From Yersinia rochesterensis (lineage in GTDB: Bacteria; Pseudomonadota; Gammaproteobacteria; Enterobacterales; Enterobacteriaceae): 64,000 nt of DNA. The DNA lies in NCBI RefSeq assembly GCF_003600645.1, contig NZ_CP032482.1, positions 2,418,001-2,482,000 of the forward strand. The letters run 5' to 3'. Shown in pieces: positions 3,187 to 12,561 of the stretch. Under the pieces are notes generated by a model that saw only the letters and a list, made by a program, of their open reading frames with translations, made no database searches and was not told where the DNA came from. Numbering within the stretch: the stretch's first letter is position 1; each line of letters begins with the position of its first letter. Position numbers and translations under genes: made by a program.

Positions 3187-3483
3187 GCAAAATTCTAATA
3201 CTATTTAAAATCAATATGTTATAAACGCTATCCGGCTTTACTTTGCCTGATATGTACACTCATATGTACACAACTCGTTTTGCACATATAGTGTGACGCT
3301 ATAACGGACAAGTCATACTAACATTCTCATTATTGGTTTATCTACTTAGAATGTTTTCTTTATTAAGCATCCCTGCCCTTCCGTTACATACACGGTCTAT
3401 CGTCAAACACATCTGTCCTAGTATCGTTAATCGACCAGGTTACAACGCCCTCGACTGCAACCTCAGTATCCTCAATATTATAG
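3187..3483. other. Intergenic stretch between thrS and the IS110-family element
   Basis: About 300 bases with no convincing ORF on either strand. The part nearest thrS must hold the thrS promoter. An ATATGTACACTCATATGTAC near-repeat lies around 3250-3268. The remainder up to the insertion sequence shows nothing I recognise and may be decayed mobile DNA. Confidence 0.4.
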
Positions 3484-3560
3484 TGATGTGATGGACGCCC
3501 CTTCCTAAGGTAGTCAGTGCCATACTTTTACTGACTGAATTAATCTGGGAGTAACACCAC

Positions 3561-4595
3561 ATGAACACAATCAGAGTTGTTGGTATCGATATTGCCAAAT
3601 CTGTTTTTCAGGTATGTGTTTGGATGGTTGATGGTTCCGTTGCCTGGAACAGAAAAATATCACGTCAGAAATTGCTGGATACGCTTCGCCAGTTTGAGCC
3701 GGGTACTTTAATCGCGATGGAGGCTTGTTCAACCTCTCATTTCTGGGGGCGAACCCTCAGTTCTATGGGGTATAGCGTAAGGCTTATACCCGCACAGCAC
3801 GTGAAAGCATTTGTCAGAAGCCAGAAGAACGATGCAAACGATGCTCTGGCAATTTGTGAAACAGCATGCCGCCCTGGTATCCACTTTGTTCCGGTTAAAA
3901 CCACGGAACAGCAGGATATCAAAGCACTGCGGAATACCCGTCAACTGATGGTTGAGCAGAGAACCGCGCTGGCTAACCAGCTTCGTTCTTTGCTCGCTGA
4001 AAACGGCCTCATTCTTCCCGTTGGGATCCAGCGTCTCCAGCAGCAGCTACCTGAACTTATTGAAGATGCATCTAACAATTTAACTTTCACACTTCGCCGA
4101 TTGCTTTCTTTATTGCGGGAAGATATGCAGGCGCTCAATGAACGCGTTACCTATCTGGATAAAGAAATGGCTGCATTGTCTTCACAACAAACAGCATATC
4201 GCCATTTATTAACAGTCCCTGGTGTTGGCCCGCTTATCGCTGCAGCATTTATCAGTGAAGTTGATGCAGTACAATTCTCCAACGGCAGAGAATTATCCGC
4301 ATGGTGCGGCCTGGTTCCCCGGCAGCACAGTTCAGGAGGAAAACAAAGGTTGTCTTCTGTGACCAAAAACGGCAATCGCAGCCTGAGAACATTAGTCATC
4401 CATGGCGCGCGCTCAGTGATGCGCTGCGTGAAAAAACGTGATGACAACCTAGGTCTTTGGCTGAAGAGGCTCGAGGCAAGGCGAGGGTTTCTGAAAACCA
4501 CCGTAGCTTTGGCGAATAAACTGACCAGAATCATCTGGCGAATACTGACCGATGGCGTTGATTTTAATATGAGCAAGGCTTTTACTGCGAATTAA
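3561..4595 (+). CDS. IS110-family (IS1111 group) DEDD transposase
   Basis: A 344-residue recombinase. The N-terminal RuvC-like domain has VGIDIAKS (first Asp at about residue 9), an acidic residue in AMEACSTSHFW, and the SQKNDANDA motif. A central coiled region leads to the C-terminal Tnp_20 domain with VPGVGPLIAAAF and the QHSSGGK segment that carries the catalytic serine in this family. The reading frame is intact, so the element may be active. Family members recombine DNA under guidance of an RNA encoded in the element's non-coding end. Good upstream context: CTGGGAGTAACACCAC before the ATG. Confidence 0.93.
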   Translation: MNTIRVVGIDIAKSVFQVCVWMVDGSVAWNRKISRQKLLDTLRQFEPGTLIAMEACSTSHFWGRTLSSMGYSVRLIPAQHVKAFVRSQKNDANDALAICETACRPGIHFVPVKTTEQQDIKALRNTRQLMVEQRTALANQLRSLLAENGLILPVGIQRLQQQLPELIEDASNNLTFTLRRLLSLLREDMQALNERVTYLDKEMAALSSQQTAYRHLLTVPGVGPLIAAAFISEVDAVQFSNGRELSAWCGLVPRQHSSGGKQRLSSVTKNGNRSLRTLVIHGARSVMRCVKKRDDNLGLWLKRLEARRGFLKTTVALANKLTRIIWRILTDGVDFNMSKAFTAN

Positions 4596-4816
4596 CTCAA
4601 TACTCGTTAAAGAAAACATGTCTCTCTGAGTTTGCAGGCACTGATGAGAAAACGGCTACCGTCCCTGTAACAGCCTGAAGTTGACCTGGGTAATAATATA
4701 CCGGTGTAGTGATAAGGAAACAGGGTTCGGATAACATCATGGCGCAGGTAACTTTACCTACTTATGACGCCGGATATATGGTCGCAAACCGTATCGAACC
4801 AGTACTTGTAACATCC
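4596..4816 (+). ncRNA. Candidate bridge/seek RNA region of the IS1111-like element
   Basis: This is the right non-coding end, where IS1111-group guide RNAs are encoded. It contains AGTTGACC (4679-4686), the reverse complement of target bases 4832-4839; ATATATGGTC (4774-4783), identical to the right junction at 4826-4835; and TAGTGAT (4707-4713), identical to the left junction at 3481-3487. These resemble target- and donor-pairing guides but are short. Exact RNA ends and fold were not determined, so this is an inference from position plus matches. Confidence 0.45.
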
Positions 4817-4830
4817 GGGGCGTCCATATA

Positions 4831-5430
4831 TGGTCAACTAAAACCGGACACGGATTTAGGCACATTGCTGTAGTCGGCGCTCATATTCATCCGGCGATAT
4901 ATTTCCCAGCCGATAATGCCGCCTTTAAGATGATAAAAACTGTCGATATAATCGATAACATCAGCGATACCCTGACTTCGGGTTTCATAACGACGATAGT
5001 TAACCCTCTCAGCTTTCAGGCTGCGGAAAACCTTTCTGTAACAGCATTATCCAAGCAGTTACCTTTTCGGCTCATTCTACCTGTAACATCCAGTTCCTGC
5101 TGGCAGGACTGGAACTGAGTTCTGGTATATTGCTCCCCTTGATCGCTATGGAACACCACTGACCCTGTGGGTCGTCGTTTATTGACTGCCAGCCTTAAGG
5201 CCCGGACAGTCAAGTCGCTGTCCGGTTGTCTGAGAAAGCCTAACTCACTATTTTTCTTGATAAGTCCATCACGATAGCCAGATATAACCAACCCTGAGTG
5301 GTACGCAGATAGGTAATATCACCTGACCATCAGGTATTCAATGTCTCTGGATTAAACTGCCGGTTCAACAGATTAGCGGCCACGACCGCGGGTTTTCCGC
5401 AGCGTGGATAACTTCAGTCCTTATGATGTG
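4831..5430 (-). pseudogene. Decayed IS3-family transposase (orfB) with its terminal repeat
   Basis: The right terminal repeat TGTCCGGTTTTAGTTGACCA (minus strand) ends at 4831. Reading minus, recognisable IS3 pieces appear in order: NLLNRQFNPETLN, then WSGDITYLRTTQGWLYLAIVMD, then FHSDQGEQYTRTQFQ (second catalytic Asp), SRKGNCLDNAVTERF (catalytic Glu), SLKAERVNYRRYETR and finally SPDEYERRLQQCA with its stop at 4856-4858. These pieces lie in different frames with at least one internal stop (LNT*WSGD), so the gene is dead. The longest surviving frame is 5016-5291 (91 codons). The N-terminal part and orfA are missing. Confidence 0.85.
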
Positions 5431-5886: not shown

Positions 5887-8800
5887 ATGATTTTTATTAC
5901 TCCGCGCCTGAGTGTAATTGCATTAATATTCGGTCAATTATTTGGTGGTGTAAATGCCCAGCCCATTGTATTAAACGGAACCACAGTTATCCTAGATAAT
6001 CCAATAGTAATTGACACTGGGTCAGTGGCGGGGAGTGCTGGCTACGCTATTAGTGTTTCCAATGCTGGTAAATTAATTGTAAATAATAGTGTTGAATTAT
6101 TTACATCGGGTAATCTCGCGCATGGTATTTCCTTAAATAATAATGCCACTGCTGATTTGGCACAAGGCGGCGCTATAATAATTAAGGGTACAGGCTATGG
6201 CGTATACAGTGACAGTGGTGCTTCTATTAACTCAAATGGGCCACTATCTATCACCACTAATGGCCGCACTACTTATGCGCTCTATGCACGAGATAATGGG
6301 GGAATAAATTTAACGCAGGGTGATATATTAACTAATGGCATTAATGGTACGGGTGTTGGGGCGCTTAGTGGTGGTCAAGTTGCTCTCAATAATACTGATA
6401 TTACCACTACGAATAATAGTTCCCGAGCGGTGTTAAGTACTGGACAGAATAGTCTGGTACAAATTGATAATGCAAATATTAGTACGCAAGGTGGATATAC
6501 TACCGCTTACACTTGGGGTTCTAGAGGTATCAGTGCTGAAAACAGCGGCAGTATAAAATTAAGTAACAGTAAAGTCAGCACCGTCAGCCAGAGAGGTTTC
6601 GCTGTTTATGCGACAAATGGCGGTACTGTGGAACTAAATAATACCGCTATTGATACCCAGGGGGTATCTGGGCATGGGGTAAGTGCAAGCGGGGTCGACT
6701 CCATCGTTAATTCAGCGGGTGATCTAACGATTGATACATTTGGTAACTCTGCCCATGCAGCATCAGCCACTCTAGCAGGAGCGGTCAACCTTGGAAGTGG
6801 CGCGCGGATCAACACTAGTGGTAATACCTCAAACGGCATTAATATTATCAGTGGTGGTGGTCTTATTACTGGAGATGCTGTCACTTTGACTACCGAGGGT
6901 TTGGCTGCCAATGGTATTTATGTTGATACTATGGGGGCCGCTGCGGGGGAGGTGGCCGAAGTGATATTAACTGGGAATTCAAACCTACATACCACTGGTG
7001 AAACTTCGGATGGCATATGGAGTGCAGGAAAGCTAACCAGTATTGATATTGAAAATGTCAATATCAATACTGGTGGAAATATTTCTTATGGCATTAATGC
7101 TCAACGTGATTCTAAAGTCAAAGTTACACGAGCTGTATTGTCAACTTCAGGTGATTGGTCTTACGGAGCTGTTGCAAACCTAGGCGGGCAAATAAGTCTA
7201 GGTGCCGGGAGTTTGATTAATACACTGGGAGAGTATGCGCATGGTCTATGGGCTGCAGATGAAAAAACACAAATTAATGCAAGCGATACTTCCATTGTTG
7301 CTTATGGTTTAGGTGCTGATTCTGTCGTAGCAACAAGCCTAGGAACTGTAATATTAAGCCAACGCTCTGGTCAGTTAGTGAGTAACCATGGGACAAACTT
7401 CAGTGCTAGCGGTGGAACGATCAATGCAACTCTGGATGGAAGCGAGGTACGCAACAGTGGTTTGCTGATTAGCGCTCTTTCTGATGTTAATGGGCATCAA
7501 AGCGATATTTCCTTACAGACCAGTAATTTATCTATGCAAGGCGACATTCTGGCTGACACAATCAGTATTGCTGATCTTTCTATGTACAACACACAGTGGA
7601 CTGGCGCTGCGACCAACGGCGGGAAAATTGAGATTGATGGACTCAGCCGTTGGGATTTGACACGTAATTCTGATGTTGCAAGTATTACTAACTCCGGTTT
7701 AATTAATTTCATGAATCCTGTTCCAGGTGATGTTCTTGTCATACATGGTGACTATGTAGGTAATAATGGCACTTTGCACTTCAATACTCAGTTAGGGGAT
7801 GATACTTCCTCCACAGATAAAATAGTCATTGAAGGGAATACTTCTGGTATCACTAATGTGAGTGTTAGCAATGCTGGCGGTCAGGGAGACAAAACTCTTA
7901 ATGGAATTGAGCTGATTCAAGTGAACGGTCAGTCAGACGGTGATTTCGTGCAACGTGGACGTATTGTCGCGGGTGCTTATGACTACAGTTTGGCGCGTGG
8001 TGTCGGTGCGAATGCCGTCAACTGGTATCTGAGCAGCGCAGCGGTACCAGTTGACCCGGCGGCCCCAGTTGACCCGGCGGCCCCAGTTGACCCGGCAGCC
8101 CCAGTTGACCCGGCGACCCCAGTTGACCCGGCGACCCCAGTTGACCCGGCGACCCCAGTTGACCCGGCGACCCCAGTTGATCCGGCAGCCCCAGTTGACC
8201 CGGCAGCCCCAGTTAACCCGGCAGCCCCAGGTGACCCAGGTGAGCGAGTTGACTCAGTTAACCCATCACCATTGACCGTGCGCCCCGAGGCTGGTAGTTA
8301 TATGGCCAACTTAGCTGCCTCGAACAATATGTTTGTAACACGCTTGCATGATCGTTTAGGCGAAACTCAATATATTGATGCGTTGACTGGCGAACACAAA
8401 GTGACCAGCATGTGGTTGCGTAATGAAGGTGGCCATACCCGCTCTCGTGATACTTCAGGTCAACTGAATACACAAGCTAACCGCTATGTAATGCAATTAG
8501 GTGGAGATATTGCTCAATGGAGCAATAATGAAATGGACCGTTTTCATCTTGGCGTTATGGCTGGTTATGGTAACAGCAAAAGTACCACTGTATCACGCGT
8601 ATCAGGCTACAATGCCAAAGGGTCAACTTATGGTTATAGCGCGGGCGTATATGGAACCTGGTACGCTAATAAAGAAGATAAAGCTGGGTTATACGTGGAC
8701 AGTTGGGTGCAATACAATTGGTTCAACAATACTGTGGAAGGTCAGGATCTAGCTGCTGAAGAATACAAATCTAAAGGGATAACAACATCTGTCGAAAGCG

Positions 8801-9249
8801 GTTATACATTTAAAGTCGGCGAAAATGCTGCTAAGAATGCGACCTACTTTATCCAGCCTAAGTCACAGATAACCTGGATGGGAGTAAAAGCCGATGACCA
8901 TAAAGAAGCAAACGGTACCAATATATCGGTTGATGGAGATGGAAATATCCAGGTACGTCTGGGAGTGAAAGCCTTTATGAACGGCTATAGTAGCCAAGAT
9001 AAAGGCAAAGATCGGGTGTTCCAGCCTTTTGTTGAAGCTAATTGGATACACAACACTAAAGATTTTGGTGTCACAATGGATAATGCTACCGTGAAGCAAG
9101 ATGGGGCTGCAAATATCGGTGAGCTAAAAGCAGGTGTTGAAGGTCAGATTAACAAGAAAGTCAATCTTTGGGGTAATGTAGCTCAACAAATTGGTAGTAA
9201 AGGCTACAGTGACACTGCTGTGATATTAGGTATTAAATATAACTTCTAA
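5887..9249 (+). CDS. Autotransporter adhesin-like protein (type Va secretion)
   Basis: A 1120-residue protein. Residues 1-25 form a signal peptide ending in GGVNA. A long passenger follows (about 26-710), built of degenerate repeats rich in G, N, S and T with phrases such as [11 protein letters not shown] and [10 protein letters not shown], as expected for a right-handed beta-helix. A hexapeptide-repeat linker occupies residues 721-780. From about 795 the sequence resembles an AidA/pertactin-type translocator ([18 protein letters not shown]) and ends in the 12-strand outer-membrane barrel with terminal NF. The barrel exports the passenger to the cell surface, presumably for adhesion or aggregation; the ligand is unknown. 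It is flanked on both sides by IS remnants and is AT-rich, suggesting acquisition. The ribosome-binding site is weak. Confidence 0.9.
8047..8226 (+). repeat. Ten 18-bp tandem repeats encoding PVDPA(A/T)
   Basis: Ten consecutive 18-bp units (CCAGTTGACCCGGCGGCC and close variants) encode PVDPAA three times, PVDPAT four times, PVDPAA twice and PVNPAA once, followed by degenerate PGDPGE. They form a Pro/Asp-rich spacer between passenger and barrel. The units are nearly identical at DNA level, so slippage can change copy number in steps of six residues without breaking the frame. Confidence 0.95.
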
Positions 9250-10819: not shown

Positions 10820-11086
10820 ATGCGTAAGATCCGATTCACCGAGCACCAGATCATCGCCGTACTGAAATCAGTCGAAGCGGGTAGGACCGTCAAAGATGTG
10901 TGCCGTGAGGCTGCTATTTCCGAAGCCAGCTACTACAACTGGAAGGCGAAATATGGCGGAATGGAAGCCGCTGATATCAAAAAAATCAAAGATCTTGAAG
11001 ACGAGAATCGTCGTCTGAAGCAGATGTTTGCCGATCTGAGTCTGGAATGCCGGGCGCTGAAAGACGTCATCGAAAAAAAGCTTTAA
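10820..11086 (+). CDS. IS407-group transposase OrfA
   Basis: An 88-residue helix-turn-helix protein (MRKIRFTEHQIIAVLK...) with a C-terminal leucine-zipper-like part (DLEDENRRLKQMFADLSLE). The start at 10820 is preferred over an upstream in-frame ATG at 10799 because GAGGAG stands 6 to 11 bases before it. It ends in VIEKKL over a run of seven A's (11073-11079), the usual site of -1 frameshifting that fuses OrfA to OrfB. Confidence 0.9.
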   Translation: MRKIRFTEHQIIAVLKSVEAGRTVKDVCREAAISEASYYNWKAKYGGMEAADIKKIKDLEDENRRLKQMFADLSLECRALKDVIEKKL

Positions 11087-11931
11087 AACCAGCGATAAAG
11101 CGTGAGCTCGTCAACTATTTGACCGCGCAGTTTACGATGAGCGTACGCCAGGCATGCAGGACGTTATCGCTGAGCAGGACGGTGTTTCGTTACCAACCGG
11201 ATACGCGACGTGATGAACCGGTGATCCAAATGCTGACAGAGGTGGCCGAGCGCTATCCCCGCTACGGTTTTAAGAAGCTTTTTCAGGTGCTTCGCAGGCA
11301 GGGGCACGTCTGGAATCACAAGCGCGTACACCGGATTTACTGTCTGTTAAAACTGAATTTTCGTCGTAAGGGTAAACAACGCCTGCCGGTGCGCAATCCG
11401 GCTCCGCTGGCAACGCCGGAAGCCCTGAACCAAAGTTGGTCGATTGATTTTATGCACGACGCGCTGACATGTGGCCGACGTTTTCGGACCTTCAATGTCG
11501 TCGATGATTTTAACCGTGAAGCTCTGGCTATCGAAATTGACCTAAATATCCCGGCACAGCGTGTCGTCCGAGTGCTGGACAGGATAGTAGCAAACCGTGG
11601 ATATCCGCTGAAGATGCGGATGGATAATGGGCCAGAACTGATATCACTGGCTCTGGCGCAATGGGCCGAAGAGCATGGCGTGATGCTGGAATTTATCAAG
11701 CCGGGCAAACCGACGCAAAACGCATTTATCGAACGGTTTAACAGGACGTACCGGACAGAAATACTGGATTTTTACCTGTTTAGAACGTTGAACGAAGCAC
11801 GGGAAATTACGGAACGTTGGCTGAATGAATATAACAGTGAGCGGCCCCATGAATCCCTGAATAACCTGACACCGGAAGAATACCGGCTGATGGCTGAAAA
11901 CCCGGAAATCTCAAAAAGTGCGTGGAACTAA
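11047..11931 (+). CDS. IS407-group transposase OrfB (DDE integrase)
   Basis: Produced as an OrfAB fusion by -1 slippage at the A-run around 11073-11079; the 11047 start is only the upstream edge of the open frame. An N-terminal HTH_21 region (SVRQACRTLSLSRTVFRYQ) is followed by the rve core with catalytic Asp in WSIDFMHDAL, Asp in MRMDNGPEL and Glu in NAFIERFNRTYR, then NSERPHESL. All three catalytic residues are present, so the transposase is probably functional. Confidence 0.9.
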   Translation: MPGAERRHRKKALKPAIKRELVNYLTAQFTMSVRQACRTLSLSRTVFRYQPDTRRDEPVIQMLTEVAERYPRYGFKKLFQVLRRQGHVWNHKRVHRIYCLLKLNFRRKGKQRLPVRNPAPLATPEALNQSWSIDFMHDALTCGRRFRTFNVVDDFNREALAIEIDLNIPAQRVVRVLDRIVANRGYPLKMRMDNGPELISLALAQWAEEHGVMLEFIKPGKPTQNAFIERFNRTYRTEILDFYLFRTLNEAREITERWLNEYNSERPHESLNNLTPEEYRLMAENPEISKSAWN

Positions 11932-12436: not shown

Positions 12437-12561
12437 CTTTTGAGTAGCACTGGGTGTATTGCTATTTCAACAGGATATGTCCATAATCAATTTCCGTTTC
12501 CGTGTAGCAATGGTTACTGGAACGCCGCCCCGATTGTTTACGCAATCGGGGCGTTTTATTT
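12437..12561 (+). ncRNA. Possible small RNA ending in a strong terminator
   Basis: A GC-rich hairpin, CGCCCCGATTG/CAATCGGGGCG (12526-12553) with loop TTTACG, is followed by TTTTATTT on the plus strand only. No plus-strand gene ends here: the nearest upstream genes are the IS and the minus-strand DUF554 fragment. TATGAT at 12425-12430 could be a -10 box for a ~125-nt transcript. Short ORFs in the region look like chance. I do not recognise the sequence as a known enterobacterial sRNA. Confidence 0.4.

Follow-up and report, generated by a model that had tools for sequence, protein, structure and literature searches.

Guide RNAs of IS1111-type insertion sequences (IS) and two-loop bridge RNAs have both been known since 2024 (PMC11187229, PMC11208160, PMC11208158). 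The seekRNA systems of the IS1111-family elements ISEc11, ISPa11 and ISKpn4 were described by Siddiquee et al. in 2024 (PMC11187229), and the bridge RNA of IS621/IS110 by Durrant et al. in 2024 (PMC11208160) and in a companion structure paper of the same year (PMC11208158). In the portions of the Durrant report that bear on these families, 93.0% of IS1111 elements are predicted to have a bridge RNA, a multi-loop is described as holding potential donor-binding bases, and six IS110/IS1111 elements were inspected by hand for guide pairing (PMC11208160). The covariation and handshake analyses, in the sections of the two papers given to them, concern IS621/IS110 (PMC11208160, PMC11208158). RNA-guided recombinases of the IS110/IS1111 kind are of interest as genome-insertion tools. 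Here, we analyzed an IS1111-type element in a stretch of 64,000 nucleotides of the Yersinia rochesterensis genome (positions 2,418,001 to 2,482,000 of contig NZ_CP032482.1; hereafter the window), and a two-loop guide RNA, with a target loop and a donor loop, is very probably made from the right non-coding end of this element. The ends of the element, its duplication-free insertion, the matches between its non-coding end and its junctions, their covariation among relatives and the stems were all observed in the sequences, and the predicted RNA is a guide RNA of the bridge type.

The intact IS110-family recombinase and the 11-base-pair (bp) subterminal inverted repeats that an earlier, sequence-only reading of the window had pointed out were both recovered, as shown in Table 1. 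The element has a DEDD recombinase in the size range of 330–350 amino acids (aa) with the motif GL-P----S(t)G (here GLVPRQHSSG, residues 250–259), subterminal inverted repeats with extensions of 7 bp on the left and 3 bp on the right, a longer non-coding region downstream of the gene, and an insertion into a specific short target without duplication, all of which are IS1111 features. A further such feature, supported by sequence and covariation, is that the match to the top strand (4679–4686) lies 5′ of the match to the bottom strand (4705–4711). The residues D10, E54, D91 and D94 are present in the recombinase, and we take them, without an alignment, to be the DEDD set. The non-coding stretch 3′ of the gene measures 221 bases (4596–4816), and 59 bases separate the left repeat from the gene. 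A right extension of 3 bp is a rule of the IS1111 family. The left extension of 7 bp is a requirement in IS1111 elements (PMC11187229). Assignment to the IS110 group proper does not fit, the RNA being downstream of the gene and 11-bp repeats being present. Partial copies of the recombinase are encoded on contigs of Yersinia aldovae, with 98–99% protein identity over residues 1–187.

Three identical copies of the element were found in the 4.45-Mb genome, namely the window copy, L002 and L003, with the junctions TATAG/TGGTCAACT, TGTAG/TGGTCAACT and TGTGG/TGGTCAAAT (the slash marks the junction), so that the same RNA region stands at similar though not identical targets and not at unrelated ones. 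The L003 copy (C1 2312205–2313559) splits a gene identified, through the relative L121, as that of a pyruvate:flavodoxin oxidoreductase; the flank of this copy is found in 24 of the 25 genomes of the genus (own genome included), seven relatives were fetched and six of them aligned (L125 was left out), and in all six the site is uninterrupted. The junction lies exactly at the positions implied by the 7- and 3-bp extensions, with zero duplicated bases. Because of this empty site, the ends of the element are fixed and a target duplication, tried as a reading, was rejected; the right end, placed at 4839 by the sequence-only reading, was corrected to 4830, with target DNA from 4831 onwards. The attempt to find an empty site for L002 failed, its relatives diverging on the right side. 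The L003 site shows two mismatches to the guides. That the guide RNA is ancestral and the window copy a decayed passenger, no longer mobile, would agree with the position of this copy inside an IS3 remnant, and is nevertheless improbable given the open reading frame, the perfect subterminal repeats, the three identical copies at three sites and the insertion of one of them into a gene whose site is intact in the aligned relatives.

Table 1. Features of the IS1111-type element and its target in the window (window coordinates; E, expectation value).
Feature	Position	Strand	Details
Whole IS1111-type element	3484..4830	+	1347 bp, without target duplication
Left extension TGATGTG (core TG first)	3484..3490	+	From the empty site
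Left subterminal inverted repeat ATGGACGCCCC	3491..3501	+	11 bp, perfect inverse of 4817-4827
DEDD recombinase	3561..4595	+	344 aa, open frame; PF01548, PF02371; NF033542 329.8 bits
Guide RNA region, covariance model R1	4628..4815	+	206.2 bits, the window sequence being one of the 30 used to build R1; only match in the window up to E 1
Candidate target-binding loop	4663..4725	+	Stems 4663-4668/4720-4725 and 4674-4676/4715-4717; inner hairpin 4689-4692/4699-4702
Candidate target guide 1 AGTTGACC	4679..4686	+	Complementary to top strand of right target half GGTCAACT; right-flank covariation
Candidate target guide 2 TGTAGTG + AT	4705..4713	+	Left target half and core TG; left-flank covariation
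Candidate left-IS-end donor guide ACATCA	4734..4739	+	Complementary to TGATGT (3484-3489)
Donor-loop stem GGCGC/G-CGCC, inner helix AGGT/ACCT	4741..4771	+	99.3% and 94.2% of cells paired, compensatory changes
Candidate right-IS-end donor guide	4774..4782	+	ATATA (right end), TG (core), GT (handshake, first target bases); covariation
-35-like TTGTAA	4806..4811	+	17 bp from TATGAT across the circle joint
Right subterminal inverted repeat GGGGCGTCCAT	4817..4827	+	11 bp, perfect
Right extension ATA	4828..4830	+	From the empty site
Target: end of IS3-family element remnant (TGGTCAACTAAAACCGGACAC...)	4831..5291	-	IS3 transposase fragment 5016-5291

Three short matches between the right non-coding end and the junctions had been proposed as possible guides, and all three were confirmed: the 8-mer AGTTGACC at 4679–4686 is the reverse complement of 4832–4839, the 10-mer ATATATGGTC at 4774–4783 repeats 4826–4835, and TAGTGAT at 4707–4713 repeats 3481–3487. 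Against two 40-base junction windows, read on both strands, one or more 10-mer matches turned up in 47 of 2000 dinucleotide shuffles of 4596–4816, one or more 8-mers in 655 and one or more 7-mers in 1564, while the observed total of five 8-mer matches was reached by 14 shuffles. The weighing given in the sequence-only reading was therefore sound, the 10-mer being moderately unlikely by chance and single 7- and 8-mers being ordinary. Its view of the matches as guides held up through covariation and the two-loop consensus fold, and what it had not done was to separate their roles: the 8-mer and the 7-mer, which it called suggestive, correspond to the candidate target guides, and the 10-mer, which it considered unlikely by chance, to a donor-loop guide. 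As a target guide the 10-mer was rejected: what it tracks is the sequence of the right IS end and core, and the role of top-strand target guide falls to the 8-mer. At the window copy, guide 2 matches the left target half at 6 of 7 positions, and its final AT equals the bases of the left IS end, which is the handshake position of the target loop.

The covariation of these segments with the flanks was analyzed in two sets of relatives. A protein scan gave 189 encoding stretches, of which the best 80 were kept as loci (named genomes and metagenome bins), and four plasmid loci (three of them full-length) and the two other own-genome copies were added, so that the first set, on which the idea was formed, held 87 loci (window, L002, L003, L035–L118). 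The exact right-end string was present in 46 of the 87 junctions, the remainder, truncated or with other ends, being unscored; 18 rows were dropped, either because the RNA was already represented, because a flank was missing or too short or, for L068, because the RNA is disrupted, leaving 28 unique RNAs with both flanks. Grouped by the four bases that follow the core, their targets form ten classes. Guide 1 matched its own right flank at 5.86 of 7 positions, against 3.98 when permuted, and guide 2 its own left flank at 4.32 of 5, against 2.92, and neither value was reached in 20,000 permutations. The first base after ATATATG in the donor loop (handshake base 1) was identical to the target base directly following TG in 24 of the 27 scorable RNAs (0/20,000 permutations). 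With the RNAs collapsed to the ten target classes, both guides remained at 0/20,000 and handshake base 1 stood at 10/20,000. Examples are the target TGTTGCTTAA with guide TTAAGCAACA and donor loop ATATATGTT, the target TGTCCAAAA with guide TTTTGGACA and donor loop ATATATGTC, and the target TGATCTACT with guide AGTAGATC and donor loop ATATATGA.

The second set was collected by the RNA alone. Model R1 matched in 44 of 295 genomes of the order and in 35 of 369 of the class, both counts including the own genome; 30 loci were taken per model search, the own-genome locus was left out and 58 were kept, counted on the RNA model match alone, with five viral-contig relatives and phage matches standing outside the analysis. 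The right end was anchored on CCATA, a string independent of the guide and picked after inspection of the data, in 55 of the 58 loci (no anchor in L166, L155 and L163). Fifty unique RNAs were scored, with cores TG (28), CG (8), TT (5) and other (9); L158 (left end and right-end guide) and L164 (left end) are probably mis-anchored and were counted regardless. Guide 1 matched its flank at 6.90 of 9 positions (4.02 permuted) in the 50 RNAs, and guide 2 its left flank at 4.33 of 5 (1.65 permuted) in the 30 with a left end. In the 50 RNAs, the right-end guide matched right-end positions 4–5 at 1.96 of 2 (1.67 permuted), the core in this guide at 1.78 of 2 (1.18 permuted), and handshake base 1 at 0.58 (0.28 permuted), the last rising to 0.76 (0.34 permuted) within the 25 elements with a TG core and ATATA. 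None of these six values was reached in 20,000 permutations; for handshake base 2, 176 of 20,000 reached the observed value in the 50 RNAs. The left-end guide (n = 29/30) tracked left-end position 6 (0.90 against 0.34; 0/20,000) and position 7 (0.66 against 0.37; 1/20,000). Four of the 50 RNAs have their two target guides in common with an RNA of the first set, and in a recount on the other 46 the tests of guide 1, guide 2, right-end positions 4–5, the core and handshake base 1 still gave 0/20,000, with handshake base 1 matching in 26 of 46.

That the short matches arose by chance within a stretch of some 230 bases is hardly credible: single 7- and 8-base matches are indeed frequent in the shuffles, and this reading is contradicted by the second-set covariation, in which RNA segments at the same place match the flanks of independent insertions in relatives at levels never reached in 20,000 permutations. 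A second explanation is that the first loop alone guides the element to its target, with the end-like segments serving as DNA sites for the recombinase or being kept for RNA processing, without pairing to the ends. This fits the ISEc11 experiments, where an 82-nucleotide seekRNA with the target segments supported transposition (PMC11187229), and also the near constancy of the donor ends among close relatives, so that much of the match there is constant. What speaks for a donor loop instead is that in the second set the right-end guide tracks the right end and the core and the left-end guide tracks left-end positions 6 and 7, that the donor-loop stem carries compensatory changes, and that the donor-guide base after the core tracks the target base of the host, for which a protein-binding site within the IS would give no reason. 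We therefore regard target-only guidance as unlikely, though less so than decay of the window copy. By covariation, the target loop appears to pair with both target strands and the donor loop with both IS ends (right end, core, and left-end positions 6–7, not 1–2).

The two loops were placed by a structure alignment of 30 RNAs. The target loop is closed by CCCTGT/ACAGGG and holds an inner hairpin, paired cells make up 97.8%, 100% and 95.8% of its helices, and every one of these shows compensatory changes; the donor loop surrounds GGCGC/CGCC, with an inner helix of its own. Pair changes on both sides occur in 14 of the 35 pairs of the consensus structure. In the 28 consensus pairs that were counted, 97.7% of cells are paired, against 30–44% when one side was slid, with two-sided changes in 14 of the 28, and none of 500 shuffles reached any of five measures. 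No Rfam family was matched at the gathering threshold in 4596–4830. The guide segments are thus placed in two loops by an alignment consensus with compensatory changes and co-vary with the flanks of their own copies across relatives, and the guide-RNA interpretation first offered for this element is supported by these comparisons.

Several observations weigh against the two-loop guide RNA. The counted structures are favoured over their slid versions because they come from the same alignment and from the window's own fold. Two closing helices compete, with 81.2% and 98.9% of cells paired, and the inner one (98.9%) is preferred, not settled. The window RNA on its own folds no more stably than its shuffles (z -0.97; 34 of 200 equal or exceed it in stability), and the structural support therefore comes from the alignment. 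Two first-set RNAs misfit their own insertions, L057 with 4 of 7 for guide 1 and 1 of 5 for guide 2, and L045 with 4 of 7 for guide 1; L057, from Xenorhabdus, has the guide class of one target and flanks of the L073 target class, as though recombination had replaced its RNA after insertion. Handshake base 1 fails in 3 of the 27 scorable first-set RNAs, all with TGCCCC targets, and in 21 of the 50 of the second set, one of which is the mis-anchored L158. In the TGCCCC-target elements (L071, L072, L075, L076, L077, L105 and L141), this base stays A, the donor base, and not the target base. Handshake base 2 was not significant at class level in the first set (2942/20,000) and was weak in the recount on 46 (1120/20,000). 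No covariation was detected in the second set for the left-end guide bases facing core positions 1–2 (n = 29/30) or for the target-loop handshake AT (6320/20,000). Taken by loop, the handshake is supported for donor-loop base 1, weak for base 2 and without covariation in the target loop. Moreover, the donor loop is perhaps not essential, because an 82-nucleotide RNA with the target segments is reported to support transposition of ISEc11 (PMC11187229).

A working scheme for the two-loop RNA can be drawn from the sequence and from the IS621 mechanism as set out in parts of the structure paper (PMC11208158). At the insertion site, the target loop would pair through its 5′ segment with the right half (top strand) and through its 3′ segment with the left half (bottom strand) as well as the core TG. 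The donor loop would act likewise on the excised circle, whose joined ends it would read with a 5′ segment that pairs with the left IS end and a 3′ segment that pairs with the right IS end plus the core. Both loops would be oriented alike, the 5′ segment facing the top strand to the right of the core and the 3′ segment the bottom strand to its left. After exchange of the top strands, the donor-loop bases past the core would meet the target strand (the handshake), so that this segment would come to resemble the right junction of the inserted element; in most relatives, the donor-loop guide carries, directly after the core, the first target base rather than the donor base. The recombinase would bind the RNA, and pairing would drive the reaction. 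The RNA is probably produced from a promoter formed at the circle joint, where 4829–4830 and 3484–3487 would form TATGAT, 17 bp from TTGTAA, as a sequence potential. A TTG at the 17-bp spacing occurs in 33 of the 39 loci listed; TATGAT occurs in 39 of 39, but the strings used for selecting the loci force it.

The usual address of the element is the tip of another transposon. The IS3 transposase fragment next to the window copy scores 71 bits, under the model cut-off of 160 bits, and two plasmid relatives of the element adjoin annotated IS3 transposases. Another IS3 end copy (L004) reads TGTAACGGTCAACT, and a pattern search of the own genome found no window-type target left unoccupied. Beside the IS3 remnant lies an autotransporter gene (5887–9249) with an internal run of repeated PVDPA units, whose best whole-protein match is the MisL model (591 bits, under the 1297-bit cut-off). 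Two small-RNA families of Rfam are also found in the window, isrN at 11085–11227 (-) and Ysr201 at 12469–12538 (+). Elsewhere in the same genome, there are two more short fragments of IS110-type recombinase genes, at C1 412489–412722 and 428796–428963. Among plasmids, 1044 records have a partial megablast match to 3484–4828, 971 of them from Klebsiella; only three records have a place covering at least 80% of the element, and many of the 30 matches listed cover one end only. No annotated gene lies beneath the plasmid match L199.

Named elements allow a closer comparison. The copy of IS4321 on a Citrobacter plasmid (L206) is matched by model R1 with 69.0 bits and has the same four guide segments as the window element: AAAACGGAA is the complement of the right target TTCCGTTTT, ATAGATTC reads as right end, core and first target base, TATTTT is as on the left target side, and ACTCATCA stands in the place of the left-end guide, the left end being TAATGAG. 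The RNA of the IS5075 copy (L205) is almost identical to this one, and the copy sits at an imperfect site. IS4321/IS5075 differ from the window element in their target, which is the Tn21 repeat and not an IS3-family end, and their recombinase shares 36.4% protein identity with that of the window over 95% of the query. IS5708 (L207) gave a weak model match (33.8 bits), and as no 8-base inverted repeat was located in it, it stayed outside the scoring. IS1328 is an element of the IS110/IS1111 type and is likened to the window element here by description only. It is listed among the IS elements of Yersinia enterocolitica (PMC3079665).

For the IS1111 elements at large, it is likely, with less confidence than for the window element, that their RNAs are fully bispecific bridge RNAs that read the target and both IS ends, with the donor-loop base after the core matched to the target of the host. 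If so, natural re-targeting would need coordinated changes in both loops, and the first set by itself shows such re-targeting across ten target classes, with the RNA scaffold conserved. The two papers of 2024 differ on the IS1111 RNA, target guides alone having been tested in the relevant parts of one (PMC11187229) and donor-binding bases predicted by inspection in those of the other (PMC11208160). The covariation indicates that the donor loop and, mostly, the target-matched handshake base are kept in IS1111 RNAs, and therefore this difference becomes directly testable. The less expected part, which a specialist may not have seen, is this covariation evidence in IS1111 for a donor loop and for a handshake base that tracks the target. 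In the open-licence literature, outside which most subscription papers and preprints lie, no paper on handshake pairing in IS1111 was found; IS1111 and the handshake occur together in one such paper, whose handshake section is on IS621/IS110 (PMC11208158).

Overall, the window element resembles ISEc11, ISPa11 and ISKpn4 in its DEDD recombinase of 330–350 aa with GL-P----S(t)G, its subterminal repeats and 7-bp left extension, its downstream non-coding region with the top-strand guide 5′ of the bottom-strand guide, and the absence of added target bases. Those elements have a promoter at the circle joint (PMC11187229), and the window element has the sequence potential for one. It differs from them in that the passages on their guides assign these to the target only (PMC11187229), whereas covariation points to a donor-matching pair and a target-tracking handshake base in the window element. 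The IS110-group RNA lies at the left end, upstream of the gene, while that of the window element lies downstream, in the IS1111 guide order. With the bridge RNA of IS621/IS110, it appears to share the two loops, one for the target and one for the donor, and, in the donor loop, a candidate handshake base; the handshake guides of IS621/IS110 pair, once strands have been exchanged, with the non-cognate DNA (PMC11208160, PMC11208158).
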